DNA from: Candidatus Vecturithrix granuli
GTDB lineage: Bacteria > Moduliflexota > Moduliflexia > Moduliflexales > Moduliflexaceae
Assembly: GCA_000739535.1 (NCBI GenBank)
Contig: DF820465.1
Coordinates: forward strand, 468,506-513,389
Direction of reading: 5' to 3'
Length of the DNA stretch: 44,884 nucleotides
Below the pieces are notes generated by a model. That model searched no databases. It had not been told where the DNA came from and saw nothing but the letters and a program-made list of their open reading frames with translations. Shown here piece by piece: positions 6,697 to 44,884 of this stretch (positions are counted from its first letter, which is position 1; every line of letters starts with the position of its first letter). Position numbers and translations under genes: made by a program.

Positions 6697-9600
6697 ATGA
6701 AACGCTTGATCATTGTTTTTGCGATTTGGATGATGAGCGCCGCGATGACAGCATTGGCAGATGAGCCGATGCTGGTGATTGATCCGCAGGGGCATTCGGC
6801 TCTGATTCAGGATCTGATTTTTACGCCGGATGGCGCACAATTGATTTCTGTGTCAGACGATAAAACCATCCGCGTATGGGATGCGGAGAGCGGCGATCTG
6901 CTCAGAACGCTGCGCGGATGGATGGGTGCGGGACCCGAAGGGGGATTAAATGCTGTGGCTCTGTCGTCGGATCCTCAATTCTTGTTTGTGGGTGGATTTC
7001 TGGATCGTTTCACCGGCGGGCGCAACGGCGATATTCGCATCCTTGCGTTTGAAACTGGCGAACAGATCGGCATCCTGCAAGGGCATAGCGACACGGTGAA
7101 TAAGCTCAGCATTTCAGGCGACGGCAGATGGATGGCAAGCGCGAGTTTTGACACAACTGTCAGGATTTGGGATCTTGACATGGTTCGTAAAAACGCTGCG
7201 CAGAAACCGTTCATCATTCAACCAACCCTGACGCTGCAAGGGCATGAGGCTGTTGTGCATGACGTGGCGTTTGCGCCTGACGGGCAGCAGCTTGTCTCGG
7301 CCTCCGAAGATCAGACGCTGCGTGTGTGGCAGCTTGCGAAAAATAAGGCCAGCGTCATCAGTTCAACCGTGCTTAAGCAACACAAGACAAAGGTGCATTG
7401 TGTGACGTATAGTCCGGACGGCAAATATTTCGCATCGGGCGATTTTCAGCATCAGGTGTTCTTATGGGATCACACGGGCAAGCTGCTGAAAAAAATTGAT
7501 ACCCTGGCCAATGAAGTGGAATCCCTCGCGTTTTCGCCGGACAGTGCGTTGCTTTTTGCCGGCAGCCGGGCTTCCGGAAAATTTTATCAGATTCCCACCG
7601 GCAAGCAGCAGCAAAGCTTTCCGCAGCAGGAACAGTCTTATTTTTATACCGCCCGATTCCATCCTACGCAAAACCTGATCGCCGCGGTTGACGGCGTTGC
7701 CCAGCAAATTTTATTGTATGATACTGTTTCAAAGCGTGTGAAAACGCAACTCGCCGGGAAAGGACAGTCCCTCTGGTCCCTCGCTTTTGGCAAGGGACTC
7801 ACAATTGCTTTTGGCCGCCAGAATACCGCGCCTTCAGGATTCGATCAACCGCCGCAAACCGCGCCGCAATATTTTCCGCTGGACCATGCGTTCAACCTTG
7901 CAGACATGACGTTTTATTATAATCCCCCATCTGAAAAGGAATTCAGCCGCGCTCAGACAACATTCCAGAGCAAGGCATTAAAACGAACCTCAGATTACAC
8001 TTTACAAATCCAGGGAGGCGCAACCATTGAAAATCGCCGGGGAACCTCAGGCGAAGGCAAAATCTGGTCTTATACCTTCACCCCTGACGGGAATGTCGCC
8101 GTCGGCGGGGATTTCGGCGTCAAACTTTACCGGCCAGACGGCTTAGTGTTGCGGGAATTGTTCGGCCATACCAGCGGCGTCTATGCTCTTGCCGTCTCGG
8201 AAGACGGACGTATTTTGGCGTCCGCAAGTCACGACCAGACGATCAAATTTTGGAATCTTGCTGACGAAGGCGTATTTCCCTCAGTGCTCGAATGGATGAC
8301 GGATCCCTCCTGGGCTGAATATCTCCAGGAAGAGGAATTAGAACAACTCGCCCGTAAAAACAGCCGCGCCGCCTGGGAAGCTATTATCAAGGAATTGCAG
8401 CAACGCGAAAAATTCCCATCAGTGTTGGAACATTTTACAGATCCGTCCTGGGCAAACTATTTTCGCGAGCAGGGTCTGGAGCGACTTGCCCTCGAAAACA
8501 GCCGCGCGGCCTGGGAAAGCATTATTAAGAAAATGAAGACTGCCAAAGATAACGATTATAAGCTGCTGCAAGAGGAACTCGATACCTTTGAGGAAGAGAA
8601 TTATAAAATCCTCCAGAAGGAATTGGAAGATGTCAGTCCCCGTATCGCCCCGTTAGCCACATTGTTTGTTGCCTCAGATAATGAATGGGTCTGCTGGACG
8701 CCCCAGGGCTATTATGCAGCTTCGGCCGGCGGCGAGAAATATATTGGCTGGCACATTAACCAGGGGCTTGACGCAGCGGCGCAATATCACCCGGTCTCCG
8801 TGTTCCGCAAGCAATTCCTGCACCCTGAACTCGTGCAACAGGTCCTCGTAACTGGCGGTTTTGAGCAGGCGCTGCGGGAAATCAATCGGGATGCGAAACA
8901 GGAAATCAGTAAAGTTGCTGTCACAGATATTCTGCCGCCAACAGTGCAATGGCTTACACCGCGCGAAAGGACAACGGACACAGACCAGGCCGCCATTCGG
9001 ATCAAGGTGAAAATTACTTCCGGCAGCGAGATTAGCGACATGAAAATTCTGGTGAATGGCAGAACCCAGGCAGCGCGGGGCTTATCAATGATTGCTGAAA
9101 CACCCCGGTCAGGCAGAGAACACGTGTTTGAGCAAGAAGTGACTTTGACTCCCGGCCAGAACACGATTACCGTATTTGCTTCGAATCAGCACGCCGGAGC
9201 AACCTCAGAAGAACGCAGTGTGAACTACCAGGAATCAGAGTGGATGAAGCCGAATCTGTATATGGTTTCAATCGGAATTTCCGACTACGAACGTCTGGAC
9301 TTACAATTGCAATTTGCCGATGATGACGCGCAGGCCATAAGCGAACTTTTCCGTTCCCAGACGGGTAAATTGTATCAGACCGTGAACATCAAGGAGTTAT
9401 ACAATACAGAAGCGACACGCGCGAACATTCTTGACGCCCTGGAATGGCTTGAAAAGCAAACCACACAGAAAGACGTGGCGGTGATGTTTGTTGCATCTCA
9501 CGGGGTCAATGATGAACGTGGCAATTTTTATCTGCTGCCCGCCGACGGCAACCCGGAAAAGTTGCGGCAAACCGGGGTTGATTGGGCGGATTTTCGAGAC

Positions 9601-10002
9601 ATTCTGGGCAATTTACCCTCAAAAGTACTCATGTTTCTGGATACCTGTCATAGCGGACAATTAGGCAAGAATTTGTTTACCTTGCGCGGGCAGGTGGATA
9701 ACACGGAGGCGATTCGCGAATTAGCGTCCGATGAAAACGGTGTGGTCATTCTGGCCGCTTCTACGGGCAAAGAGTTTTCAATGGAACATCCTGAATGGGG
9801 ACACGGCGCGTTTACCAAATCGTTGTTAAACGGGCTGCGAGACGGCAACGCGGATCTAAACGGCGATGGCGTTATCCACCTGAATGAATTGGACTATTAC
9901 GTGGCTGAACAGGTGAAAGCCTTGACCGGCGGCGCGCAGCACCCGACGACGCTGAAACCTTCAACCATCAGCCGTTTTCCGATTGTGCAGGTTGGGGAAT
10001 AA
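6697..10002 (+). CDS. Exported WD40-repeat protein with C-terminal caspase (peptidase C14) domain
   Basis: A 1101-residue protein starting after GGAGGGG. Residues 1-21 form a Sec signal peptide (cleavage near ALA-DEP), so it acts outside the cytoplasm. Residues about 30-535 hold WD40 blades (for example SDDKTIRVWDAESGDLLRTL). Two tandem copies of a roughly 45-residue unit (FPSVLEWMTDPSWAEY and FPSVLEHFTDPSWANY) follow, then a coiled coil, an unnamed domain (EWVCWTPQGYYAAS) and an Ig-like segment. The caspase fold begins near residue 850. The catalytic dyad is intact: His935 (VASHG) and Cys984 (LDTCHSG). It is expected to be a Lys/Arg-type cysteine protease like other bacterial metacaspase-like proteins. 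It is monocistronic. Substrates and trigger are unknown. Confidence 0.9.
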   Translation: MKRLIIVFAIWMMSAAMTALADEPMLVIDPQGHSALIQDLIFTPDGAQLISVSDDKTIRVWDAESGDLLRTLRGWMGAGPEGGLNAVALSSDPQFLFVGGFLDRFTGGRNGDIRILAFETGEQIGILQGHSDTVNKLSISGDGRWMASASFDTTVRIWDLDMVRKNAAQKPFIIQPTLTLQGHEAVVHDVAFAPDGQQLVSASEDQTLRVWQLAKNKASVISSTVLKQHKTKVHCVTYSPDGKYFASGDFQHQVFLWDHTGKLLKKIDTLANEVESLAFSPDSALLFAGSRASGKFYQIPTGKQQQSFPQQEQSYFYTARFHPTQNLIAAVDGVAQQILLYDTVSKRVKTQLAGKGQSLWSLAFGKGLTIAFGRQNTAPSGFDQPPQTAPQYFPLDHAFNLADMTFYYNPPSEKEFSRAQTTFQSKALKRTSDYTLQIQGGATIENRRGTSGEGKIWSYTFTPDGNVAVGGDFGVKLYRPDGLVLRELFGHTSGVYALAVSEDGRILASASHDQTIKFWNLADEGVFPSVLEWMTDPSWAEYLQEEELEQLARKNSRAAWEAIIKELQQREKFPSVLEHFTDPSWANYFREQGLERLALENSRAAWESIIKKMKTAKDNDYKLLQEELDTFEEENYKILQKELEDVSPRIAPLATLFVASDNEWVCWTPQGYYAASAGGEKYIGWHINQGLDAAAQYHPVSVFRKQFLHPELVQQVLVTGGFEQALREINRDAKQEISKVAVTDILPPTVQWLTPRERTTDTDQAAIRIKVKITSGSEISDMKILVNGRTQAARGLSMIAETPRSGREHVFEQEVTLTPGQNTITVFASNQHAGATSEERSVNYQESEWMKPNLYMVSIGISDYERLDLQLQFADDDAQAISELFRSQTGKLYQTVNIKELYNTEATRANILDALEWLEKQTTQKDVAVMFVASHGVNDERGNFYLLPADGNPEKLRQTGVDWADFRDILGNLPSKVLMFLDTCHSGQLGKNLFTLRGQVDNTEAIRELASDENGVVILAASTGKEFSMEHPEWGHGAFTKSLLNGLRDGNADLNGDGVIHLNELDYYVAEQVKALTGGAQHPTTLKPSTISRFPIVQVGE

Positions 10003-29518: not shown

Positions 29519-30706
29519 GTGGCGCAGCAGCAGGACGGCGTGTTCACCTGGATTCATTCGGATCACCTGCACAGCGCGACCGTGCTGACCGACGCCGACG
29601 GCCTCGACATCCGCCGCCTGGCCTACGCCGCCTTTGGGGAGGAAGCCGCAAACAGCGGCCCCGGTGCGGCCCCAACCTACACCTACACCGACAAAGAACG
29701 GGACAGCAGCGGCCTGCTGTACTACGGCGCGCGCTATTACGACCCAGCCCTGGCGCGCTTCATCACCGCCGACAGCGTGTATGACGCCGGCCCGCAAGGC
29801 CTGAACCGCTACTCCTACGCCCTGAACAATCCCATCCTCTACCGCGACCCGACGGGGCAGTTTATTAATGGGCCAGATGATGAGAATGATCCCCTCAGCT
29901 ATGGTGCTGTGACCGGTTCCCAGGAACAATTTCAGGATGGGACTGCCCTGATTCATGATGGTAGAGATGGTACAGCGGATCAAACCATACGGACATATCT
30001 GGCAGGCGGCTATGCTGCCTTTCCGCCTGCACCATCCATCTCTCATCTGCCGATGTCCTGGAATGTCGATTGCAGAATGCGTGGGCCTTTTGGCCCACAT
30101 GGTGGCATCATCGATCGTTTCATGTATAGTGGGTGGGCCGCTGGATTCGCAAATCAGTGGGAGCGTTCCGCTAGAGAAAGCCGCGACATTTTGTATGGGC
30201 TGGTGGAGCGTTATCCTTGCGCAGAGACCATCGCGTTGGCGACGATGATCACCACCTCGATAGATTTCGGTTCAGGATTGGTTGATACGCTCCGCTTAGG
30301 GGAAGGCATGGCCGAAGGAGGGTGGGGATATGGCAAAGATGTCCTGCGGGCAACTGTCATTGTGTCCCACAGTTTCAAAGTATTAAGAGGAATAGGAGTG
30401 CGTGGTGAATTTGGTTCTGGAAGATTTTATCAATGGAATGAATTCTTAGATTGGGCGTCGGAAAATAAAGGATACTTAAATAGTGCAATGACTCCTGGAT
30501 GGAATAACACATTTAAATTGATTCAAGGACTTCCAAAACCTTTGAAACAGGTTGGAATGATAGGGTTTAAAACCGCAAATTTAGCTCACTATGCCAGAGC
30601 AACAAAATTGTATGTTTATGGCGATGCGCTTTCTGGTTTCGGTAAATGGGAAAGATGGATCGTCAATTTTGTTGGAGGGATAATAGAGCATATTCCTGGA
30701 AAGTAG
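29519..30706 (+). CDS. Orphan Rhs C-terminal tip (core end plus possible toxin domain)
   Basis: 395 residues from a GTG. It starts inside the Rhs/YD core (TWIHSDHLHSATVLTD) and contains the hallmark end of the core: YTDKERDSSGLLYYGARYYD, then NPILYRDPTGQFI at about residue 105-118. The rest is a variable tip; residues about 300-395 (FYQWNEFLDWASENKGYL...) could be a toxin domain but match nothing I know. In-frame codons upstream to 29492 still look like core, then a stop, so the large N-terminal cage is missing. Composition changes from GC-rich (core) to AT-rich (tip), as in modular tip exchange. It may be a silent displaced tip or a dead fragment. Confidence 0.65.
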   Translation: MAQQQDGVFTWIHSDHLHSATVLTDADGLDIRRLAYAAFGEEAANSGPGAAPTYTYTDKERDSSGLLYYGARYYDPALARFITADSVYDAGPQGLNRYSYALNNPILYRDPTGQFINGPDDENDPLSYGAVTGSQEQFQDGTALIHDGRDGTADQTIRTYLAGGYAAFPPAPSISHLPMSWNVDCRMRGPFGPHGGIIDRFMYSGWAAGFANQWERSARESRDILYGLVERYPCAETIALATMITTSIDFGSGLVDTLRLGEGMAEGGWGYGKDVLRATVIVSHSFKVLRGIGVRGEFGSGRFYQWNEFLDWASENKGYLNSAMTPGWNNTFKLIQGLPKPLKQVGMIGFKTANLAHYARATKLYVYGDALSGFGKWERWIVNFVGGIIEHIPGK

Positions 30707-30744: not shown

Positions 30745-32049
30745 ATGAAAAGAAAAATACTCTCTGAAATATCTGTAAGTCAAATAACATCATCGTGGTT
30801 GGCCCATTCATTCATCGTCAGCCCAGACAACAAACGAGTAGCCTATATTGTCAAGAAAAACAGATGGGGGTTCATAGGTCGATATTCATTTGCAGTCATT
30901 GATAAAGATACAGGAAATCACTACTCTCGTGTTGCAAATATGCTTTTCAGCCCGGACAGTCAGCGAATTGCGTATCTGGCATCTACAGCCACAACGGCTT
31001 TTGCTATCATTGATGGACAAAAAGGGAAGCCCTATGATGAGATTTGGGAAGGTTTGACGTTCAGTCCCAATAGTCAAAGGATGGCCTATCCGGTTCGATT
31101 AGCTGATCAAAGCTTTGTGGTGATCGATGCAGAGGAAGAGAAATACTATGATGCGTTACTTACACCTCCGGTTTTTAGTCCGGATAGCCAATACATCGCG
31201 TATGGAGCCCGAACAGGTCATACAAGTTTTGTGGTTGTGAATGGGCAAGAAGGGAAACCGTATGTTGGTATTGATAAACCATGTTTTAGTCCGAAAAATC
31301 AACATGTAGCTTATGCAGCCAAAATCGCTCACAAATGGTGTATTGTAGTAGATGGACATGAGGGAACGCCATACGATAGTATTGTGGAACTTCAGTTTAG
31401 TCCGGACGGTGAGCAGATAGGGTATGCAGCGAGAATTGAGAACAAGTGGCTGTGTGTATTAGGAAAACAGGAAGGGAAGTTGTATGATAACATCGGTGGA
31501 CTCACGTTCAGTCCGAATAGTCAATGTGTCGCTTACGGAGCCAGAATTGGCAACAAATCGCTGATTGTGAGAAATAGACACGAAGGAATCCCTTGTGAGC
31601 AAATTTTAAAAGGGATCATTTTTAGTACTGATAGTCAACGGATGGCTTATAGGGGCCGGTTTAAGAAGAAGAGTTGTGTGATTGTCAATGATCGACAAGG
31701 AAGGCTGTATGACAATGTCGGCGATTTCATCTTTAGCCCGGATAGCCGACAAGTCGCGTATGGAGCAAGAATTGGTAAAAAGTTTTTTGTGGTTGTAGAT
31801 GAACAAGAAGGACAACGGTATGATGATGTTGGCCCGCTCGCGTTTAGTCCAGATAGCCAGCATCTTGCCTATCGGGCTCGAATAGGTAAGAAGGAATGTG
31901 TGGTGATCGATGACAATGAAGGAAAATCCTACGATGCCATTATTTACCAGGGCGGCGGCCGGATCGTGTTTGACGCGCCGGACCGACTGCATTATCTGGC
32001 GCAGGAAGGGAAGCATATCTTACTGGTGGAAGAACAGATCGTTGATTGA
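30745..32049 (+). CDS. Cytoplasmic beta-propeller repeat protein (PD40/TolB-like)
   Basis: 434 residues made of about eleven units of 37-42 residues with consensus FSPDSQxxAYxARxGxKxxVV followed by DGxEGxxYDxI. These are WD40-like PD40 blades, as in TolB-type propellers. No signal peptide or membrane segment is visible, so it is probably cytoplasmic. The ATG follows GAGGAGAATAATTC, 38 bp after the Rhs tip. Position right behind an Rhs tip is where an immunity gene is expected, but a propeller is not a known immunity type, so this is only a possibility. Base composition is AT-richer than neighbours. Confidence 0.75.
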   Translation: MKRKILSEISVSQITSSWLAHSFIVSPDNKRVAYIVKKNRWGFIGRYSFAVIDKDTGNHYSRVANMLFSPDSQRIAYLASTATTAFAIIDGQKGKPYDEIWEGLTFSPNSQRMAYPVRLADQSFVVIDAEEEKYYDALLTPPVFSPDSQYIAYGARTGHTSFVVVNGQEGKPYVGIDKPCFSPKNQHVAYAAKIAHKWCIVVDGHEGTPYDSIVELQFSPDGEQIGYAARIENKWLCVLGKQEGKLYDNIGGLTFSPNSQCVAYGARIGNKSLIVRNRHEGIPCEQILKGIIFSTDSQRMAYRGRFKKKSCVIVNDRQGRLYDNVGDFIFSPDSRQVAYGARIGKKFFVVVDEQEGQRYDDVGPLAFSPDSQHLAYRARIGKKECVVIDDNEGKSYDAIIYQGGGRIVFDAPDRLHYLAQEGKHILLVEEQIVD

Positions 32050-34268: not shown

Positions 34269-36452
34269 TTACTTGGTATAAACCCACAGTTCACACAGGT
34301 CATCAAAGCCTTTCAGCAGAAATTTACCGGCATAGCTGAATTTGGCGTGTTCAGCAGAAGACAGGCGATCCAGGGCATAGCGCGAAATGACGATCCGATT
34401 AGAAATCGGCAAGGACCGTTTGGGGGTTGCCGAATCGATTTGATCTTTCATTTGCACGCTTTCCATGCGGAAAACCCGGTGTACTTCAACCCCGAGCACG
34501 TCGCCTGCCGGGCCGGATTTCACCTGTCCCCAGTGTAACGCCATCCGCACCTGGATACCAGGATGAATCGGCGTTTTTAAAAAGGAAACAGCCAGGGCAA
34601 ACGCAGCGGGTGCGGTATTAAACACCGCCAGAAATCCATCGCCGGTTGATTTTAAAAAGATCAGATCCAGAGCTGAATCATGATTTTTGACACGTTTATA
34701 GATCGTCCCGATCATATTCGAAAAATAGGTATCGCCAACTTCGCGTAGATATTCCGAGGATTCTTTCATATCAAGGACAAGCAAAGCGACCTCTTTGCGA
34801 GACGCCTGGTGAATAATTGAATAAAAAAACGAATCGCGCTGAACCATGTCAGGCAGTTGCAGGGATTCCTGCCAGTTGTCGCTCAAAAAATCGGGCAGTG
34901 CATCTTTTTCTTTGATGCCAGAGGCTTCTGCCTTTTTAGGTTCGACAGGTTGGGGAGATTCAGGGGGAGATAGAGGTTTGTCCAATAATCCAGACTCCCG
35001 GAGCGCCTGGGTGAATTCATCGAGAAAAACCCGTGCATCAGCATAGCGCAGCCGCGCCAGCGCCTTACGCATTTCTTTTTCATCATAGGGCACTTCCGCT
35101 TCCTGGAGGGCATGATCGATGACCGCCGCGACGGGTTCAGGAATATCAGGGTTACGCCGTCGAATCGGGATGGCAGGATTTTTGACAATCACATTCATGT
35201 AGTCGGAAATTGAAGCAATCCGTTTATTCTGGCGACAGCGTTCGAACAGGGCGTCAAAGCCTTCCCTCACCCATTTTCCGGTGAGTAATTCATAAAATAC
35301 TGCCGCCACAGAAAACACGTCAGTCGCAGGGTTCAGGTAACGATAATGGGTAATTTGTTCACGCGGCCAATACATTGGCGTCCCCAACACATCGCCTGGT
35401 TTGGTAATATTGGTAAACCCTGCCGACTCAAAACTTTTAGAGATGCCAAAATCGGAAATTTTGGCGATCCACTGCGTTCCTGAGCGTTCGACTAAAATAT
35501 TTTGTGGTTTGAGATCACGGTGGACGATCCCGGTAAACACACTCTTTTCTCCTGTGGAGATTTCCATGGTAACTTTGGCATGATGGGCATAGGCTAATCC
35601 GTCAAGCGTTCCTAACATAATAGGAATGGCTTCTTCAAGCGGAATTGCGCCTTTTCTGGTTTGAATGAGCTGGTGCAGGTTCATTCCATCAACAAATTCC
35701 AGGACAAAATAAAAGGTATCAGATGTTCTCCCGTGGTCAAACAATTGCACAATATTTTGATGTTTCAATTGCTGCATGACCTCAATTTCACGCAGGAAGG
35801 CCGTGACGTTCTCCTGATCTGTCGCCATGTGGGGCAGCATGGTTTTAATCGCCACAATCTGACCGGTGGCAAGATTCCTCGCTTTATAGACAATTCCCAT
35901 GCCACCCCGATCGATCAGGTCTTCAATACGATAGCCTTGAATTTCAGGAGCATTGGGGACAACTTTCTGAGCATCCGCCGCTTCTTTCAGCATTTTTTTG
36001 AGAATCCCTGCATGATCAGTCTTTCTTTCAGATTGCTTCACAGGTTGAGAAGGAGGAGTATGAGATAGGGTGAGGTCTCTGGCGGGATGCCGCGAATCAG
36101 AAAGTCCGCTCAACGAAATTTGTAAATGGGTATCTCCTACAATAATTTCATCTCCATCTTTCAAATACACCTCTTTAATATCGTCGGGGGCTTGCATGAT
36201 TTCCGCCCGCACCGGTTTTTTTCCGCCATACCGAATCCCATTGACAATCGTACCGTTTTTGCTGTCAAGATCAGTAATTTTACACTCCGGAGGGGAAATC
36301 TCGAGCAGAAAATGTCGGCGTGAGACATAAGGATCAGAGGGTAAAGACACACGAGCATCAACTGATCGACCAAACAGGAAACGATCTGGCTTGTCAAAGG
36401 TGAAGCGCTGACCTTTTGCAGGTCCCGCTGTAATGGCAATATCTACCCGCAT
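34269..36452 (-). CDS. FHA domain - Ser/Thr kinase - class III nucleotide cyclase
   Basis: 727 residues. FHA domain at about 20-115: GRS (28-30), SRRH (44-47) and NG pairs for phospho-Thr binding. Kinase at about 174-470: Lys203 (AIKTM), catalytic HRDLKPQN with Asp313, DFG at 334-336; an extra loop of about 18 residues (KVTMEISTGEKSVFTG) precedes HRD, and the APE motif is replaced by WPREQ. C-terminal class III cyclase domain from about 553: metal Asp561 and Asp605, Lys601 fitting adenine. The transition-state Asn is His658, while Arg662 is kept. No membrane helix. The ribosome site is weak; an upstream TTG is less likely. Last gene of the island; paralogous to the gene at 42351. Confidence 0.87.
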   Translation of the reverse strand: MRVDIAITAGPAKGQRFTFDKPDRFLFGRSVDARVSLPSDPYVSRRHFLLEISPPECKITDLDSKNGTIVNGIRYGGKKPVRAEIMQAPDDIKEVYLKDGDEIIVGDTHLQISLSGLSDSRHPARDLTLSHTPPSQPVKQSERKTDHAGILKKMLKEAADAQKVVPNAPEIQGYRIEDLIDRGGMGIVYKARNLATGQIVAIKTMLPHMATDQENVTAFLREIEVMQQLKHQNIVQLFDHGRTSDTFYFVLEFVDGMNLHQLIQTRKGAIPLEEAIPIMLGTLDGLAYAHHAKVTMEISTGEKSVFTGIVHRDLKPQNILVERSGTQWIAKISDFGISKSFESAGFTNITKPGDVLGTPMYWPREQITHYRYLNPATDVFSVAAVFYELLTGKWVREGFDALFERCRQNKRIASISDYMNVIVKNPAIPIRRRNPDIPEPVAAVIDHALQEAEVPYDEKEMRKALARLRYADARVFLDEFTQALRESGLLDKPLSPPESPQPVEPKKAEASGIKEKDALPDFLSDNWQESLQLPDMVQRDSFFYSIIHQASRKEVALLVLDMKESSEYLREVGDTYFSNMIGTIYKRVKNHDSALDLIFLKSTGDGFLAVFNTAPAAFALAVSFLKTPIHPGIQVRMALHWGQVKSGPAGDVLGVEVHRVFRMESVQMKDQIDSATPKRSLPISNRIVISRYALDRLSSAEHAKFSYAGKFLLKGFDDLCELWVYTK

Positions 36453-36468
36453 AACGTACAAGTGACTG

Positions 36469-36543
36469 AAGTGACTAAAATTTGTAAGTGACTAAATTTC
36501 AAAAATCCTTCTCATACTTTGTCACTTGAAACTTTAGTCACTT
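36469..36543. repeat. Intercistronic inverted repeat
   Basis: 36469-36492 (AAGTGACTAAAATTTG...) pairs with 36521-36543 (ending TTTAGTCACTT) with few mismatches. It fills the gap between the giant WD40 kinase and the last FHA-kinase, and touches the stop codon of the former. It may stabilise or trim the transcript between the two genes. Confidence 0.65.
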
Positions 36544-39500
36544 TAGCCATTTCTTTTTCTGCTTTTGAACAATGATGTCAGACTGGAAAGAAAATGAGCA
36601 TCGTGCTGTTCATTTTCTCCAACAGCAAGACTTGTGCCGCTCGTATCTAATTCCCAATCGAGTTCACATAAACGCACTGAATGATCTTCGCTGCCTGAGA
36701 GCACAAACCGTCCATCGGGAGTGATTGCGACTGCAGACACTCCTTGTTTGTGCCATTTGAAGGTCCATAAACATTCCCCCCGGGCCAAATCCCAGAGTTT
36801 TACCGTTTTGTCCAGGCTGCCTGAAAGCGCAAAACGCCCGTCAGTGGTTATCGTGATCGAGGTGATTTCATGATCATGCCCTTTGAGCACAAGCAGACAT
36901 TTAGCGGTGGAAATTCTCCATAAACGCAAGGTCTGGTCGCCGCTAGCAGACAGAAGAAATCGCCCGTCAGGCGTCACGAGCACTTCTGTTACCCGCTGTT
37001 TATGTCCTTTCAACACGCGCAAACATTTGCCCGATGTTCGTTCCCAGAATCGAATCGTTCTGTCATCACTGGCGGAAATCACGATGCGTCTGTCAGGCGT
37101 CATGGTCACAGAGGTCACCCCGCGGCGATGGCCTTTAAGAATTTGAAGACATTCAGTAGTGGAAGGGTTCCAAAGCCGAACGGTGCCATCTTTGCTCCCT
37201 GAAAGAATAAAACGTCCATAGTTTGACATTGTGACGGCTGTGACTTCCTGTTCATGCCCTTCATACACCCGGAGGCAGTGAGCTGAAGCTAAATCCCACA
37301 ATCGCAAGGCTGCATCCTCGCTTCCAGAAATCACAAAACGGGCGTCAGGAGTAATTGCGACCGAGGTGACGGCTAACCAGTGTCCGTCAAAGAGGCGCAG
37401 ACATTTGCCCGTTTCAATATCCCACAACCGCAGCGTGGTATCCTGACTGCCCGAGATCGCCAGACGGCCATCGGGCGTTACCGCAACCGAGGTGACCCCT
37501 TTATGATGTTCTTCGCCCGTCCAGAGCAGCCAATCTCCTCTCAACGTGCTCCGTTGTAGCACTTTAGCAATCAACGCATTCAATTTCAAGGCTTCGGGTG
37601 CGCGTTCATAACCAGGAATAGAGCGAGCTTGAGCAAGGTAACGGTAAGCCACCGTTGCTTTCCCGTTTCTCCAGGCCGTTTTGGCCCAGGCCATCCGTTT
37701 CCGAAAGCGATCGGCAGACCATTGCAATTGCTCATGATTTTGCTGGCGGCATAACTGTAATGCGGCTTCATAGTGATAAGCTTCAGGAAGATCCAGGTTC
37801 CACACCCGTATGGTCGCATCACGACTCCCGGAAACGACAAATTGCCCTTCAGAGGAGACCATGAGTGCTGTCACCGCATCATGGTGCCCTTTGAAGGTTC
37901 GCAAGCACTTTGTCGTTGTAAAATCCCATAAGCGCACTGTTCCGTCATCACTCCCTGACACAATAAAATTCCGATCCGGGGTGAACGTTACGGCATTAAT
38001 TCGTTCGCGATGCCCTTCAAATACACGCAGACAACTGCCTGTCGAAAGATACCACAGGCGTAACGTGCTGTCTGCCCCGGCGGAAACCACAAAACGTCCA
38101 TCGGACGTAATGGCAACGGCTCGGATTTCTCCCCGATGCCCTTCATAGATTTTCACGCATTTTCCGGTAGTCAAATTCCATAAACGTACCGTCTGATCAC
38201 GACTTCCGGAAATCATGAATCGTCCGTCCGGAGACATTGCGACGGAAGTCACCCCATCCTGATGATCTTGATAGGTTTGCAGGCAGCGGGCCGTTTCTAG
38301 TTCCCACAAACGCAAGGTATGATCTTCACTCGCTGACACAGCAAGACGGCCATCAGGACTAATGCTCACTGAGGTCACATCCTTTTGATGCCCACTGAAA
38401 ATTCGAAGGCACTTTGTTGTTCCAAGTTCCCAAAGGGCAAGCGTTGCGTCCCGGCTTCCTGACAATGCAAACCGTCCGTCCGGCGTCACCGCGACGGTGG
38501 TGACATCTTTTCCATGTCCCTGATAGGTTTTGAGGCATCTTCCGGTTTTGAAATCCCACATTCTGAGGGTCATATCCTGACCCGCTGACACGACAAATCG
38601 TCCATTTAACGCGAGGGCTAACGACGTGATCGCATCTTTGTGCCCTTGCTCTTCCCAGAATGTCCAGACAAGTTCATGTTTTTCCAAATCCCAAATCCGT
38701 ACGGTGCCATCGCGACTGCCAGAAACCATTAGACGCCCGTCCGGAGTGACGCTTGTTCCCGTCACCCCGGCATGATGGCCTTCAAACATCCATACCGGTT
38801 GGTTTTTCTCCAAATCCCATAAGCAGAGATTGGTATCTTCACTGCCTGAAATCGCGAAGCGGCCATTCGGAGTGAACGCTATGCTTGTGACACTTTCATC
38901 GTGCGCTTTCAAGGTGCGTAACACCTGGCCGCTTTTCATATCCCAGACTCGCATCAGCGCATTTTGATTGCCATCAAGAGCGAATTGTCCATCAGGACTT
39001 ATCGTAAGTGCTGACACGGCCGACCAGTAAAATCCTAACACTTCTAGGGAAGAACCGTAATATTTTCTCTCTGTCAGCTTGCCTGTTGTGAGATCCCAGA
39101 GATATAAATTTTCTTCATCATGTCCTGTCAGGGCATACCGTCCATCTGGCGTAATTGCCAGGGCATTCAACCAGTTTTTAAATTTCTCGGAGGTCCAAAG
39201 GCAATTGCCGGTCATCAGATCCCACAGGCGCAGGGTTTTATCACGGCTACCTGAGACCACATGTCGTCCATTCGGAAGAATGGCGACGACATTGACCCAA
39301 TCAGTATGGCCACGTAAGGTGCGCAGATATTTTCCTGTTTTCAATTCCCAGACACGCAAAGTTTTGTCTCGACTCCCGGAAACCGCGATTTGCCCATCCA
39401 GGGTCACGGAGACCGTCAATACTTTATCTTCATGACCGCGAAGGGATCTGATCCATTCATGTGTCACTAAATCCCACAGGTGTAAGGTTTTATCTTCGCC

Positions 39501-41399
39501 GGCCGACACTGCATACCGTCCGTCTGATGTCACCGTAATCGCTGTCACCTCGCCTTGATGCCCACTTTGAAACGATCGAAAACAGCGTTGCCATTGAAAA
39601 AAAATCTGCCCGCTATGAATCCGGGTGTGGCTCTGGGCGAGAATATAGCGTTCAAGGCATTCAGAATCCCCTGGAATCAATTCCAGGGCTTTTTGATACG
39701 TTTCTTCAGCATCAGTATATTTTTCCTGAGTTAAGCGTGCATCCCCTAATGCTCGCCAAAGTGCCCCATTTTGTGCCAGTTCCGAATCTTCCAGGGCAGT
39801 GAGTAATTCTTCTTCAGCCTCATCAGCGGCTGTTCGTTCCAGATGAAGAAACCCTAGATATAAATTCGATCGTTTACTGACATGCTTGGCTTCTTCGACT
39901 TGTCTGACAACGTCATCATCGGTAATTTGCGCTTTCCGCCACAGGATCAGGTGTTTATTATAGACGGATTCTGGATGATAGGCATCCAGTTTTAAGGCCT
40001 CATTCCAGGATTCAAAAGCCTCTGGCTCTTTATCTAAATCAAGAAGGGACACGGCGCGGTTATTCAGAGCGTCTGACCGAAGATCGGCGGCCTGAGGCAC
40101 CATTCTGCGATAATGTTTTCCAACAATGTCGCGATAAATCTCAGCAAGCTCTTGCCGCAGATCGAGCATTTTTCCTGGTCGTTTTTCGGGATCTTTGGCA
40201 AGACATTTGAGAATCACCTGCGCCAATGGGCGTGGTATATTCTGATTAAATGTCAAAGGATCGGGAACTGGTGATGATAAATGACGCCCAATAATCACAT
40301 GAGCTGGTTCAGAATGACTGCCATCATCATAGGGTCGGCGTCCACAGCACATTTCAAACAGGATCACTCCTAAGCCATAAATATCGGCGCGGCTATCCGC
40401 ATATCTGGCCTGACCCCATTGCTCCGGCGCCCCGTATTCCGGCGTCCCCAATTCTGAGCCGGTCATTGTAATGGCAACGGCCGTATCATTTTTGGCGGTT
40501 TTTGTTTTCGGAGTTGGAATATCTGCCATCCCTTCCCGTTTCACAATCCCAAAATCCGTCACCAATAAATCGCCGGATTCGGTCAGTAACATGTTTCCGG
40601 GTTTGACATCGCGATGCACCTCAACTCCGCGTTCATGGGCATATCCTAACCCATCACAGGCCTGAATGACCAAATCAAGAATTTTATCCCATTGTCCGGG
40701 CGTCACCTTGCCCAGATTGATCCAATCTTTCAAGCTTCCCCCGCCAATATAATCCATGAACACACGGGGAACGCCGCCGAGTTCCCGCACATACCAACAC
40801 TGAACAATATTGGGATGCAAGCCTAAATCAACCCACGTTTGAGCTTCTCGGATAAACCGGGCTTTTGAGGCTTCGTCGGCAACCAGATATTCAAGGGGCA
40901 TTTTGACGGCCATGTCGAGTTTCCATTCCCGATGATAAATGCGATAGACAATGCCCATTCCGCCCTGTCCGATAATTTCTTTGACTTCAAAACGCCCATC
41001 AATGACATCACCGATTTCCCAATTGAGTTTGTCAACCAGTTCCCCGGTGCCTCCACCGATTGAGCGAGACAGCGTCATATCGGCCAAAGGACGCTTCCCT
41101 GAAAACACCCCTGTTCGACCTGTCTGTGTTCCCTCGTTCGTCCTTCCCGCTGTGAACGTCATCCGGCTTTGTTCAACCCCCTCTCTTTGGCGCACAGTGA
41201 ATGTCACTTGAGTTGGCGTGGTTTCTTGCCTTTGACCGGCTGTCAACGTTAGCTCCTGCTGAGACGGTTCACTCGCTCCTTTTGACATCGAGGTCTTCTC
41301 CCCTGCTCTGATTCCGTTCTTGTTTTTGGTCAACGTATGCTCATCAGAAGGTACATTTTCAGGTTCCTTCGCGGCAATGTGCTCATCTTTTTCTGGCAT
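36543..41399 (-). CDS. Ser/Thr kinase with TPRs and 21 WD40 blades
   Basis: 1618 residues. Residues 1-125: disordered, with repeated Thr clusters (LTLTAG, VTFTVRQ, MTFTAG). Kinase about 137-420: IGQGGMGIVY loop, Lys166, HRDVKPGN with Asp264, DFG at 282-284, GTPEYGAPEQ. TPR-like helices about 438-592. WD40 repeats follow from 613: fourteen, then a helical spacer of about 90 residues (near 1210-1300), then seven more. The count is 3 x 7, that is three seven-bladed propellers. It should be a cytoplasmic sensor or scaffold kinase that recruits partners through its propellers. The ATG follows AGAGGA. It is 48 bp behind the PP2C gene and in one direction with it. Confidence 0.92.
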   Translation of the reverse strand: MPEKDEHIAAKEPENVPSDEHTLTKNKNGIRAGEKTSMSKGASEPSQQELTLTAGQRQETTPTQVTFTVRQREGVEQSRMTFTAGRTNEGTQTGRTGVFSGKRPLADMTLSRSIGGGTGELVDKLNWEIGDVIDGRFEVKEIIGQGGMGIVYRIYHREWKLDMAVKMPLEYLVADEASKARFIREAQTWVDLGLHPNIVQCWYVRELGGVPRVFMDYIGGGSLKDWINLGKVTPGQWDKILDLVIQACDGLGYAHERGVEVHRDVKPGNMLLTESGDLLVTDFGIVKREGMADIPTPKTKTAKNDTAVAITMTGSELGTPEYGAPEQWGQARYADSRADIYGLGVILFEMCCGRRPYDDGSHSEPAHVIIGRHLSSPVPDPLTFNQNIPRPLAQVILKCLAKDPEKRPGKMLDLRQELAEIYRDIVGKHYRRMVPQAADLRSDALNNRAVSLLDLDKEPEAFESWNEALKLDAYHPESVYNKHLILWRKAQITDDDVVRQVEEAKHVSKRSNLYLGFLHLERTAADEAEEELLTALEDSELAQNGALWRALGDARLTQEKYTDAEETYQKALELIPGDSECLERYILAQSHTRIHSGQIFFQWQRCFRSFQSGHQGEVTAITVTSDGRYAVSAGEDKTLHLWDLVTHEWIRSLRGHEDKVLTVSVTLDGQIAVSGSRDKTLRVWELKTGKYLRTLRGHTDWVNVVAILPNGRHVVSGSRDKTLRLWDLMTGNCLWTSEKFKNWLNALAITPDGRYALTGHDEENLYLWDLTTGKLTERKYYGSSLEVLGFYWSAVSALTISPDGQFALDGNQNALMRVWDMKSGQVLRTLKAHDESVTSIAFTPNGRFAISGSEDTNLCLWDLEKNQPVWMFEGHHAGVTGTSVTPDGRLMVSGSRDGTVRIWDLEKHELVWTFWEEQGHKDAITSLALALNGRFVVSAGQDMTLRMWDFKTGRCLKTYQGHGKDVTTVAVTPDGRFALSGSRDATLALWELGTTKCLRIFSGHQKDVTSVSISPDGRLAVSASEDHTLRLWELETARCLQTYQDHQDGVTSVAMSPDGRFMISGSRDQTVRLWNLTTGKCVKIYEGHRGEIRAVAITSDGRFVVSAGADSTLRLWYLSTGSCLRVFEGHRERINAVTFTPDRNFIVSGSDDGTVRLWDFTTTKCLRTFKGHHDAVTALMVSSEGQFVVSGSRDATIRVWNLDLPEAYHYEAALQLCRQQNHEQLQWSADRFRKRMAWAKTAWRNGKATVAYRYLAQARSIPGYERAPEALKLNALIAKVLQRSTLRGDWLLWTGEEHHKGVTSVAVTPDGRLAISGSQDTTLRLWDIETGKCLRLFDGHWLAVTSVAITPDARFVISGSEDAALRLWDLASAHCLRVYEGHEQEVTAVTMSNYGRFILSGSKDGTVRLWNPSTTECLQILKGHRRGVTSVTMTPDRRIVISASDDRTIRFWERTSGKCLRVLKGHKQRVTEVLVTPDGRFLLSASGDQTLRLWRISTAKCLLVLKGHDHEITSITITTDGRFALSGSLDKTVKLWDLARGECLWTFKWHKQGVSAVAITPDGRFVLSGSEDHSVRLCELDWELDTSGTSLAVGENEQHDAHFLSSLTSLFKSRKRNG

Positions 41400-41447
41400 G
41401 ATATCCTCTTTTTTTATTTACACTGTTTCCAGGGATAACAAGAAGGT

Positions 41448-42191
41448 TTACAGATTGACAATATCTACCACAATGGCGGTAATGTTGTCCGTTCCATCCT
41501 GTTGTTTGGCTGTTGAAATTAACGCCTTACATATATCCCCAGGAGGAGAAGGCTGAAGAAGCAGGGTCAATAATTGGTGTTCAGATAGTCCTTTTGTCAG
41601 ACCATCTGAACACAGAAGCCAACGATCATCTTTCTGCACCGTATTCTTCCAGATTCCGGGGTGCAATTCTTCTTCTTTGCCAATATATTCTTCCAATGCG
41701 TGGCTCAAGGGATGTACTTTAGCCGTTTCTGGGCTGAGATGACCTGTACGAATCAATGCTGCTGCGATCGTTTGATCTTCAGTAATCTGAAGCAATTGGT
41801 TCTGGCGTAATACATACACCCGACTATCCCCAGCACACGCAATGTAAGCGAATTGATCCTGGAACAACAAGATCGCGACGGTTGAACCAAGTCCCCGAAC
41901 TTCAGGAAGGCTTTGGGATTGTTGATAGAGATCCTGGCTTAATTCACAGAGGGTTTCATGTAATGCTGCAACAATCGTTTCAGGGGTCGGATGTTCGTAT
42001 CGCGCTAACTTTTCCTGCAATATGAGGGGAATCAAGGTAATAACTGCCTTACTAGCAGTTTCACCGGCAGATCGTCCTCCCATCCCATCGGCAACGATGA
42101 ACAGGCCAGCGGCAGCATCACACAGCAGCGCATCTTCGTTATGTGTGCGCTTCGACCCCATATCTGTTAATCCTACAGCCAGAATAGTCAT
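41448..42191 (-). CDS. PP2C-family Ser/Thr protein phosphatase
   Basis: 247 residues, the usual size of bacterial PP2C (Stp/PrpC). All metal and core motifs are visible: KRTHNEDALL, VADGMGGRSAGE, GSTVAILLF, CAGDSRVYVLR, CSDGLTKGL and DGTDNITAIVV. It should remove phosphate from Ser/Thr of the kinases around it, as paired Stp enzymes do. I start at MTILAVG, where GAGGGG is four to five bases upstream; an ATG four codons earlier would overlap that site. A good sigma-70-type promoter lies at 42301-42329. It is followed by the giant WD40 kinase. Confidence 0.93.
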   Translation of the reverse strand: MTILAVGLTDMGSKRTHNEDALLCDAAAGLFIVADGMGGRSAGETASKAVITLIPLILQEKLARYEHPTPETIVAALHETLCELSQDLYQQSQSLPEVRGLGSTVAILLFQDQFAYIACAGDSRVYVLRQNQLLQITEDQTIAAALIRTGHLSPETAKVHPLSHALEEYIGKEEELHPGIWKNTVQKDDRWLLCSDGLTKGLSEHQLLTLLLQPSPPGDICKALISTAKQQDGTDNITAIVVDIVNL

Positions 42192-42300
42192 ATTTCCCCT
42201 CATTCATGTTTCAAAAATACGAAAGGTTCCAAAAAGATGTTCTCGATTGTTTTGACTCGATGTTCAAGGTTTTGAGTTGTACAGATCAATTTATAATTAC

Positions 42301-42329
42301 TTCATAGTAATCGTAGAAAAAATTGTCAA
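42301..42329 (-). promoter_or_regulatory. Sigma-70-type promoter upstream of the PP2C gene
   Basis: On the minus strand: TTGACA (42329-42324, perfect -35), a 17-bp spacer and TATGAA (42306-42301, 4 of 6 at -10). The start point would be near 42294, leaving a leader of about 100 nt to the phosphatase ATG. It would drive the PP2C gene and probably the WD40 kinase and the last FHA-kinase. This is a pattern match, not a proven promoter. Confidence 0.5.
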
Positions 42330-42350
42330 CAAATAACCATCTCATTCAAA

Positions 42351-44357
42351 TTACCTGGTAAAGTTCCAGAGTTCACAGGGGTTTTCAAAATTCTTTAATT
42401 TGAATACTCCTACGGATTTGAATTGACCCTGCAAAGAGACAGGAAGATGATGTAGTCCCGGCTTGCTAATCAGTATTCGATCGGCTTCCGGCAGAAGGGT
42501 AGCTCGATCTGTTTGTGCGATTCGATCCTCAATTTTTACCCCTTCAATACGCGCCGCTCGGTGCACTTCCGCTCCTAAGACATCGCCGTCGGGGCCGGTT
42601 CGCACATATCCCCAATGTAATGCCATCCTGATCCGCATATCGGCATGGATCGGCGTTTCTAAAAAAGAAGCAGCCAGGGAAAATGCCGCCGGCATAGTTT
42701 GAAACGCTAATAGAAATCCATCGCCTGTGCATTTCAAAAAAATGAGATCCAACGCTGAAGCGTGATTTTTTATTCTGCGATACATTTTGCCAACCAATGT
42801 ACTAAAGGAGGTATCACCTTTATCAAGGACATATTGGGTTGATTGTTCCAAATCTAACACAAGCAGCGCCACTTCTTTTTGTTTGGTTGGTGTGATAGTC
42901 GAATACACCACAGCTCCGGCGGTAGGAACGTCAACTCCAGATGGAGAAATTTTCCGAGATGGTGACGGCAGCGTTTTGTTTACTTGCGTCCTACTCCCGA
43001 TTTCTTTGAACGCCTGAACCAGGGCGTTGCGAAATTCTCCGGCATCACGGTAACGCAGATGCAGTAAAATTTCACGCATCTTTGACAAGCTCTGAGGGAT
43101 TTCAGTTTCGCGCAAGGCTCTGTCAATGACTTTTGCCAGCGGCGCAGGAATGTTCTGACGACGTTGGCGAATGGGAATGGTGGGGTTAGCAAGAATCACC
43201 TGTAAATATTCAGAAATTGATGGTTGTTCTCTCTGTTGGCTCATTTTGTAAAATAGTTCCTGAAACCCGTTGCGCACCCAATGGCCTGTTAACATTTCAT
43301 AAAAGACCGCTGCAATCGCAAACACATCACTTGCGGGAACAGGAAACGTATAATGAGTAATCTGTTCACGAGGCCAGTAGATGGGCGCTCGAAGAATCTG
43401 CTCCGGGGAAGTAATATTCGTGAATCCGGAAGATTCAAATCCTTTCGACAGGCCAAAATCGGTAATTTTCGCAAACCAGGCTCCTTTTTGGTGCGTTAAT
43501 AGAATATTTTGTGGTTTCAAATCCTGGTGCACAATGCCTCGAAAGACTTTGTCCTTACCTTGCGCAGTGCGCATAGTAATTTTCACGCGATGGGCATAGG
43601 CTAAACCATCAAGAATGCCAAGCATCAGAGGCGCCGCTTCTTCAAGCGTAAGAGATCCGCCTTTTGTTTCAAGGAATTGCACCAAATTCATGCCATCAAC
43701 ATATTCAACGATAAAATAAAAATCTCCTCCTGCCTGTCCATGGCGAAATAAACGCGCAATGTGCTCATGCTGAAGCTGGCTCAATACCTCAAGTTCCCTT
43801 TGAAACTGTCGAATGTTATGTGGTTCGAGAGCTGTTCGCGGAGAGACGATTTTCAGCGCAACCACGGCACCGGTGTGCTGCTCTCTGGCTTTATATACGA
43901 CCCCCATTTTGCCCTGACCAATCTTCTGCTCAATACGATAGCCTGGAATCTGCGGAACTCTCCCTGTCACCTGCGGGGCAGCCGGCACATTGGCAGGGAA
44001 CCCGAACGATTGCGCAATGGAAATATGTATACGCGTATCCCCCACAATAATCTCATCACGATCTTTCAAGTGAACTTCTTTGACCTCATTCGGAGCCTGT
44101 CGTATGCCTGGGATCGGGGGATTGCGTCCGCCATAACGCACCCCGTTCACAAACACGCCATTCTTACTATTCAGGTCTGTCAATTTGCAATCTGGTGGAG
44201 AAATTTCGAGCAGAAAGTGCTGACGCGACACATACGGATCATTTGGCAACGAAATATGAGCCTCTTCCGAACGACCGAAGAGAAAACAATCTGGTTTGTC
44301 AAATGTAAATTGTTGTCCTGCCGCAGGCCCGGCAGTCACCCGAAGTTCTACTTTCAT
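42351..44357 (-). CDS. FHA domain - Ser/Thr kinase-like - class III nucleotide cyclase (HQD variant)
   Basis: 668 residues, same architecture as the gene at 34269. FHA about 20-115 (GRS 28-30, SRQH 44-47, NG pairs). Kinase domain about 140-445: Lys169, DFG at 300-302, but the catalytic loop reads HQD (His277-Gln278-Asp279), so it lacks the Arg that usually needs activation-loop phosphorylation; the G-loop is GQGKMG. The same extra loop (KITMRTAQGKDKVFRG) precedes HQD. Cyclase domain from about 495: Asp502 and Asp546, Lys542, His599 in place of the catalytic Asn, Arg603 kept. Soluble. First gene of the island; the ribosome site is weak. Downstream is the PP2C promoter. Confidence 0.87.
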   Translation of the reverse strand: MKVELRVTAGPAAGQQFTFDKPDCFLFGRSEEAHISLPNDPYVSRQHFLLEISPPDCKLTDLNSKNGVFVNGVRYGGRNPPIPGIRQAPNEVKEVHLKDRDEIIVGDTRIHISIAQSFGFPANVPAAPQVTGRVPQIPGYRIEQKIGQGKMGVVYKAREQHTGAVVALKIVSPRTALEPHNIRQFQRELEVLSQLQHEHIARLFRHGQAGGDFYFIVEYVDGMNLVQFLETKGGSLTLEEAAPLMLGILDGLAYAHRVKITMRTAQGKDKVFRGIVHQDLKPQNILLTHQKGAWFAKITDFGLSKGFESSGFTNITSPEQILRAPIYWPREQITHYTFPVPASDVFAIAAVFYEMLTGHWVRNGFQELFYKMSQQREQPSISEYLQVILANPTIPIRQRRQNIPAPLAKVIDRALRETEIPQSLSKMREILLHLRYRDAGEFRNALVQAFKEIGSRTQVNKTLPSPSRKISPSGVDVPTAGAVVYSTITPTKQKEVALLVLDLEQSTQYVLDKGDTSFSTLVGKMYRRIKNHASALDLIFLKCTGDGFLLAFQTMPAAFSLAASFLETPIHADMRIRMALHWGYVRTGPDGDVLGAEVHRAARIEGVKIEDRIAQTDRATLLPEADRILISKPGLHHLPVSLQGQFKSVGVFKLKNFENPCELWNFTR

Positions 44358-44373
44358 GAAAATATCTGCACAC

Positions 44374-44429
44374 TTCGGCTCCGCTCAGTGTACGCCACAT
44401 GTCGAACGAAGTCGGGACAGGTGCATTGC
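44374..44429. repeat. CTTCGxCTCCGCTCAG-type inverted repeat
   Basis: ACTTCGGCTCCGCTCAG at the left and CGAACGAAGTCGGGAC at the right form an imperfect inverted repeat of a type widely dispersed in environmental genomes. It lies upstream of the FHA-kinase start. I see no gene in 44430-44545. Confidence 0.45.
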
Positions 44430-44545
44430 GCTCCCCTCTATACTTTTTTACTGTCCAAATTGTAACCCTATTTTCTCACTAGTTAAGACAATAAACCATT
44501 TATCAAGTCTAATTGTCGCCGTGAGAATTTTTCATAGGAGTTGTC

Positions 44546-44884
44546 ATGAACTCACGCTCACCCGACGCAATGAAAATACGATATACCGCGAAATTCCTTT
44601 TCGCGGCCATAGCAGGTGTATGCGCGAAAAGGAATTTCGCGCTACATTTTCAAAGGAGGTGGCATGAGCCACCAGTTCACTCGACGCAATGAAAATGAGA
44701 TGTACCGCGAAACTCCAGTTTCGCGGGCGGATGAATGGTGCGCGAAACTGGAGTCTCGCGCTACATTTTCAGCGGCGTGATGAAACGCTAAAGCTTTCAC
44801 TACAGACATAGATTTGTAAAGGAGTTATCATGAACGGGCGCTCACCCGACGCAATGAACATCAGATGTAGCGCGAAACTCCAGT
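44546..44884. repeat. REP-like palindrome array with conserved leaders (cut by window edge)
   Basis: Three units begin at 44546, 44664 and 44830. Each has AAAGGAG or AGGAG, then ATGA, then a segment ending in CGACGCAATGAA. Two complete units carry a palindrome: 44588-44605 with 44623-44640 (GCGAAATTCCTTTTCGCG) and 44707-44725 with 44741-44760 (GCGAAACTCCAGTTTCGCG, one mismatch), closed by GCGCTACATTTTCA. The third begins GTAGCGCGAAACTCCAGT and runs off the window. Such paired palindromes resemble REP/BIME arrays moved by REP-associated transposases; none is in view. Confidence 0.7.

Follow-up and report, generated by a model that had tools for sequence, protein, structure and literature searches.

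A Ser/Thr phosphorylation module with fused class III cyclases and a predicted cAMP output in Candidatus Vecturithrix granuli

Can the phosphorylation of threonine residues be coupled directly to the synthesis of a cyclic nucleotide in bacteria? This question is raised by a locus of Candidatus Vecturithrix granuli (UASB270), an uncultured filamentous member of candidate phylum KSB3/Modulibacteria with a genome of 21 scaffolds and 8,384,694 bp (PMC4312070). In the stretch analysed here, called the window (44,884 nucleotides, G000:C19:468506-513389, where G000 is the V. granuli genome), two proteins each join an FHA domain, a Ser/Thr kinase and a class III cyclase. They are named FKC1 and FKC2 (FHA + kinase + cyclase protein) and flank a PP2C phosphatase and a giant WD40 kinase, WDK_B. 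Studies of bacteria usually treat Ser/Thr phosphorylation as one pathway and cyclic nucleotide signalling as another. Here, predicted reader, writer and second-messenger synthase would be held in one chain, with the eraser and the scaffold kinases adjoining. A direct switch from phosphothreonine (pThr) to cyclic AMP (cAMP) could be tested with few soluble proteins.

The four genes, which the earlier note had described as running in one direction with small gaps, indeed all lie on the minus strand (Table 1), and FKC1, PP2C, WDK_B and FKC2 are separated by 147, 48 and about 90 bp. The set was, however, incomplete in that description, as a fifth member, the WD40/TPR kinase WDK_A of 1622 amino acids (aa), is encoded immediately beyond the window end (L054:803-5671 = G000:C19:513602-518470). 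The whole unit is [WDK_A-FKC1]-PP2C-[WDK_B-FKC2]. The FKC2 reading frame, previously given as 730 aa from TTG 36461, is real, but its start is most likely ATG 36452, which aligns with the starts of the other FKCs. FKC1 and WDK_A are about 740 bp apart, and this gap contains, at 44529-44884, 67-69 nt direct repeats together with inverted repeats (GCGCGAAACTGGAGTTTCGCGC type) resembling repetitive extragenic palindromic (REP) elements. A promoter scan gave a result at chance level, and a search of the V. granuli genome found no second copy of the locus. All five genes recur in the same order in another KSB3 genome, that of the dolphin KSB3, from a different genus of the same family (G001, DOLJORAL78_50_49, PDSJ01000011.1), with gaps of 149, 114, 47 and 23 bp. 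Conservation of the neighbourhood in a relative, a point that the earlier note had left to be checked, is thus observed for its four genes and for the fifth. Because the flanking genes differ between the two genomes, these five genes are taken as the unit.

The C-terminal domains of the FKCs gave no match to Pfam PF00211 (Guanylate_cyc) at E 0.01, and their identity was therefore decided from a profile, a structural model and fold comparison. The NCBIfam LipJ model (Rv1900c type) matches both FKCs (5e-6 and 8e-6), and a profile of this domain built from four FKCs finds, in the PDB, Rv1900c (8.9e-8) and Ma1120 (2e-6). An AlphaFold2 (AF2) model of the domain has a mean predicted local distance difference test score (pLDDT) of 91.3 and a predicted template modelling score (pTM) of 0.89. 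With this model, the best Foldseek matches are all class III cyclases (1ybt, E 3.6e-11), and VIA-align gives Z about 20 to Ma1120 and Rv1900c over ~160 residues at 2.0-2.4 Å. The cyclase fold on which the earlier note had staked its reading of both hybrids is thereby recovered, and the identification of the domain, taken alone, is almost certain.

Both window FKCs carry the two metal ligands (D/D) and the K-D pair specifying ATP, a conserved feature of adenylyl cyclases (PMC4215837). Across the 12 members of a cyclase alignment, three residues never vary: the Lys, the second metal Asp and the Arg of the transition state. The Asn of the Asn-Arg transition-state pair, which is common among class III cyclases without strictly defining them, is replaced by His, as also in Rv1900c according to the profile alignment, and this is the single change among all the checked catalytic residues of FKC2. 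Ma1120 is active despite an Ala at the canonical Asn position. The domains are read as putative adenylyl cyclases, predicted to synthesise cAMP, because of the D/D ligands and K-D pair, of the His shared with Rv1900c and of the activity of Ma1120 with Ala. It may also be imagined that the fused cyclase is a regulator rather than an output, binding ATP or another nucleotide to tune the attached kinase; the module would then be a kinase cascade that includes a domain for sensing nucleotides. The His at the transition-state site would fit such a role, as would the metal Asp1 replaced by Gly in FKC2 of the second genome, and catalytically inactive cyclase domains are known from vWA effector proteins (PMC7159879). 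However, that FKC2 is the only one of the four FKCs to lack the metal Asp, the metal and K-D residues being complete in the three others, and the canonical Asn is non-essential in Ma1120. We hold this explanation to be unlikely.

The other parts of the module were assigned by Pfam and by residue. FHA and Pkinase are matched in both FKCs. The FHA residues G-R, S-x-x-H and N, named as pThr-binding (PMC1262709), are invariant in an alignment of nine proteins. All Hanks Ser/Thr kinase residues (Lys, Glu, HRD Asp, Asn, DFG Asp) are found in both window FKCs; the FKC2 kinase is canonical and the FKC1 kinase is non-RD (HQD), with its catalytic Asp retained. The phosphatase announced between the two hybrids belongs to PP2C by PF13672 (2e-12, 47.6 bits for a cut-off of 24). 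It matches NF033484 at 5.6e-58 but with 196 bits, below the 230 cut-off, and is 58.5% identical to its counterpart in the second genome. On WDK_B, Pfam reports Pkinase and 19 WD40 stretches; the repeat count is 21 (14 + 7), in keeping with the three propellers proposed for this 1618-residue protein. Three relatives outside KSB3 have 14-15 repeats, and fewer are detected in those of G066 and of a Nostoc plasmid (see below). TOMM_kin_cyc (TIGR03903; 129.5 and 116.1 bits for the FKCs, cut-off 705.75) and the PknB/PASTA kinases (NF033483; 180 and 141 bits, cut-off 450) were rejected as family assignments, and the threonine phosphorylation pathway of type VI secretion (T6SS TagH/Fha) was dropped (TagH 18 and 20 bits, cut-off 120).

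How did such a unit arise? In trees, WDK_A/WDK_B and FKC1/FKC2 group by gene and not by genome (WDK forks fully supported; FKC1 fork 93/93, FKC2 fork 97/96). Thus, the duplication of the WDK-FKC block predates the split of the two KSB3 genera. The Desulfobacterales HSG2 has a WD40 kinase and an FHA-kinase without cyclase, and the latter ends at the point where the KSB3 linker and cyclase start. Since HSG2 stands outside the duplicated pairs, one cyclase fusion occurred, before the duplication. The widespread form of the module without cyclase had escaped the earlier note, in which the kinase-cyclase module was otherwise correctly recognised. When an FHA-kinase profile was run against 385 genomes, family members scored about 1e-105 or better over their full length and generic kinases about 1e-57 or worse. 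Members without cyclase occur in G027 and G066, where the FHA-kinase is found together with a PP2C and a WD40 kinase, and in G337, G207 and G267. In these other lineages the WD40-kinase/FHA-kinase pair is usually accompanied by PP2C, and in most relatives the segment linking FHA to kinase bears zinc-ribbon CxxC motifs, which are absent from the window FKCs. A triple fusion in the order FHA-kinase-cyclase was found nowhere else in the 385 genomes, four genomes of the phylum, a contig scan or plasmids. Other relatives of the KSB3 cyclase are an FHA-cyclase (G147) and HEAT-, TPR- or GAF-like-cyclase proteins.

These neighbourhoods bear on whether FHA and kinase might work in cis only, the FHA binding its own phosphorylated linker or activation loop, with the WD40 kinases and PP2C serving other substrates and the cyclase simply regulated by the kinase. 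The two domains are fused in every member, and FHA-kinases are already known in cyanobacteria (PMC1262709, PMC2176072). However, in KSB3, HSG2, G027, G066, G337, G207, G267 and Nostoc, a WD40 kinase adjoins the FHA-kinase or its PP2C, and the two kinases were duplicated together; a purely cis mechanism therefore seems improbable. The Nostoc case, a WD40 kinase and an FHA-kinase without cyclase, is carried by the mobilizable plasmid p057_E (L128:4158-9338), and the module is therefore mobile. This mobility, with the PADLOC kinase models matched (PD-T4-6, mad6), might evoke an anti-phage or conflict system with a cyclic nucleotide alarm. The PADLOC matches nevertheless fall in generic kinase or WD40 domains, and the module showed neither an effector gene nor a nuclease or receptor. 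This explanation was dropped as very improbable.

The repeated association of cyclases with the module is the strongest evidence that pThr signalling and cyclic nucleotide output are functionally linked. In KSB3, a Rv1900c-like cyclase is fused at the C-terminus of the FHA-kinase. In G002 and G003, of the same order, neighbouring genes encode an FHA-GAF-cyclase and an FHA-GAF-cyclase-PP2C, with cyclases of the ordinary PF00211 type that the KSB3 cyclase profile does not match. In G121 (L127:8776-11463), a chain of 895 aa has an N-terminal cyclase (matching 3mr7, 1.6e-5), a middle region, FHA, zinc ribbons and kinase, thus a triple fusion in another domain order. In G337, the WD40 kinase is followed, 70 bp downstream, by a CHASE2-cyclase gene. 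These architectures indicate that cyclases joined the FHA-kinase module by several routes and more than once. As cyclases make up ~0.1-1% of genes in these genomes (our estimate from cyclase counts), four linkages among about eleven loci are more than chance would give. Since these linkages are several and different, the earlier proposal that Thr phosphorylation drives cyclic nucleotide production, with PP2C as reset, gains support without being proven.

A mechanism may then be envisaged. The giant WD40/TPR kinases would act as input sensors and scaffolds, phosphorylating Thr residues on themselves or on partners. Through their FHA domains, FKC1 and FKC2 would read these phosphothreonines, FKC chains would thereby be brought together, and this clustering would switch on the cyclisation of ATP by the C-terminal domains, regulation presumably running from phosphorylation to cyclisation. 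Activation by clustering is proposed because class III cyclase active sites form between two catalytic domains. The cyclases may function as homodimers, or FKC1 and FKC2 may pair in a heterodimer in which FKC1 tends to serve as the cyclase and FKC2 as the kinase, and PP2C would strip the phosphates and reset the switch. Putative cAMP receptors may be sought among the cyclic nucleotide (cNMP)-binding domains encoded in all four KSB3-phylum genomes examined. With domains, residues, gene order, conservation and ancestry as its observed basis, this five-gene Ser/Thr phosphorylation module with a pThr-gated cAMP output reset by PP2C is, as a whole, about as probable as its negation.

Several observations weigh against it. 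The pair of triple fusions is seen in two genomes only. The full-length AF2 model of FKC1, not used as evidence, is poor in its cyclase part because no more than four alignment rows cover the cyclase. V. granuli has 18 other PF00211 matches and 19 cNMP_binding matches, none tied to the locus, and the output therefore need not be specific. Among the linkages, G121 and G337 are the weaker cases: the G121 genome carries 63 PF00211 matches, and the adjacency in G337 is possibly due to chance, cyclase genes of that length being found elsewhere in related genomes. Finally, the reciprocal loss of catalytic residues described next is a single case, from one contig of a metagenome-assembled genome (MAG).

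The two triple-fusion proteins of the earlier note are in place, but the uneven state of their catalytic sites had been overlooked. In the second KSB3 genome, the FKC1 kinase has HRE, SPQN for KPQN, and DFH, and is probably dead because of these changes, while its cyclase residues are intact; FKC2 has an intact kinase and the Gly-substituted cyclase. An FKC1:FKC2 heterodimer would still hold one working cyclase site. In V. granuli, divided labour is only hinted at, by the HQD of FKC1. A similar asymmetry is seen in G002/G003, where one of the two FHA-GAF-cyclases has GG at the place of the expected second metal motif GD. Paralogues dividing two catalytic activities would here have a natural case, but one clean case is insufficient to prove it. 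In mammalian adenylyl cyclases, the C1 and C2 halves are unequal. By analogy, FKC1 and FKC2 might form an obligate, pThr-assembled heterodimer of two enzymes that are partly dead and complement each other. One subunit would contribute the kinase and its partner the metal-binding half of a single cyclase site; binding of FHA to pThr would gate the complex, and PP2C would reset it. This bacterial parallel to C1/C2 is a tentative proposal, which we hold to be less likely than not.

Table 1. Features of the locus, in window coordinates.
Feature	Position	Strand	Details
FKC1	42351..44357	-	668 aa; FHA + kinase + class III cyclase
FKC1 FHA domain	44010..44357	-	aa 1-116; pThr-binding residues G28 R29 S44 H47 N66 kept
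FKC1 kinase domain	43110..43940	-	aa 140-416; K169, E188, D279, N284, D300 kept; HRD reads HQD
FKC1 class III cyclase domain	42354..42890	-	about aa 490-668; D502, D546 metal; K542, D592 base-specifying; H599/R603
PP2C phosphatase	41448..42203	-	251 aa
WDK_B	36543..41399	-	1618 aa; kinase + TPR-like region + 21 WD40 repeats (14 + 7)
WDK_B kinase domain	40125..41012	-	aa 130-425
WDK_B WD40 repeats 1-14	37782..39539	-	aa 621-1206; two seven-bladed propellers
WDK_B WD40 repeats 15-21	36594..37487	-	aa 1305-1602; third propeller
FKC2	34269..36452	-	727 aa; FHA + kinase + class III cyclase
FKC2 kinase domain	35205..35933	-	HRD + DFG intact
FKC2 class III cyclase domain	34272..34805	-	
REP-like inverted repeats	44370..44884		FKC1/WDK_A gap

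WD40-like repeats are also present elsewhere in the window: a protein of 1101 aa (6697-10002) combines WD40 repeats at its N-terminus with a caspase-like Peptidase_C14 domain at its C-terminus, and one of 434 aa (30745-32049) consists of repeated PD40/WD40-like units (FSPDSQ..AY..RIG). An open reading frame of 395 aa (29519-30706), with no Pfam match, resembles a truncated RHS-repeat C-terminus plus a tail.

Fusions of FHA with kinase, of kinase with cyclase and of kinase with WD40 repeats have each been described (PMC1262709, PMC2176072, PMC11032199). For FHA, kinase and cyclase in one chain, or for the five-gene unit, no description was found in searches of an open-access library, an absence that is weak evidence. 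The FHA-kinases of cyanobacteria and Chloroflexus (PMC1262709), such as alr0548 and alr4954 (PMC2176072), have an N-terminal FHA and a Hanks kinase like the FKCs but are without a cyclase domain; that of the Nostoc plasmid, paired with its WD40 kinase, is 34% identical to FKC2. Myxococcus Pkn2 (PMC1262709), Tery_2857 (kinase-GAF-CYCc; PMC2176072) and TOMM_kin_cyc proteins share with the FKCs a Ser/Thr kinase and a class III cyclase in one chain, whereas their listed architectures include no FHA and Pkn2 has a transmembrane segment. Rv1900c of M. tuberculosis and Ma1120 of M. avium are the closest to the FKC cyclase in solved fold and in sequence, but are not fused to FHA or kinase; Rv1900c shares the His at the Asn position and differs by an Asn where the FKCs keep the Lys. 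Finally, PkwA (PMC1262709) and the WD40/TPR-tailed Ser/Thr kinases of Uabimicrobium (PMC11032199) resemble the WDKs in joining a kinase to a long WD40 array, from which WDK_A and WDK_B are distinguished by their 21 repeats, forming about three propellers.

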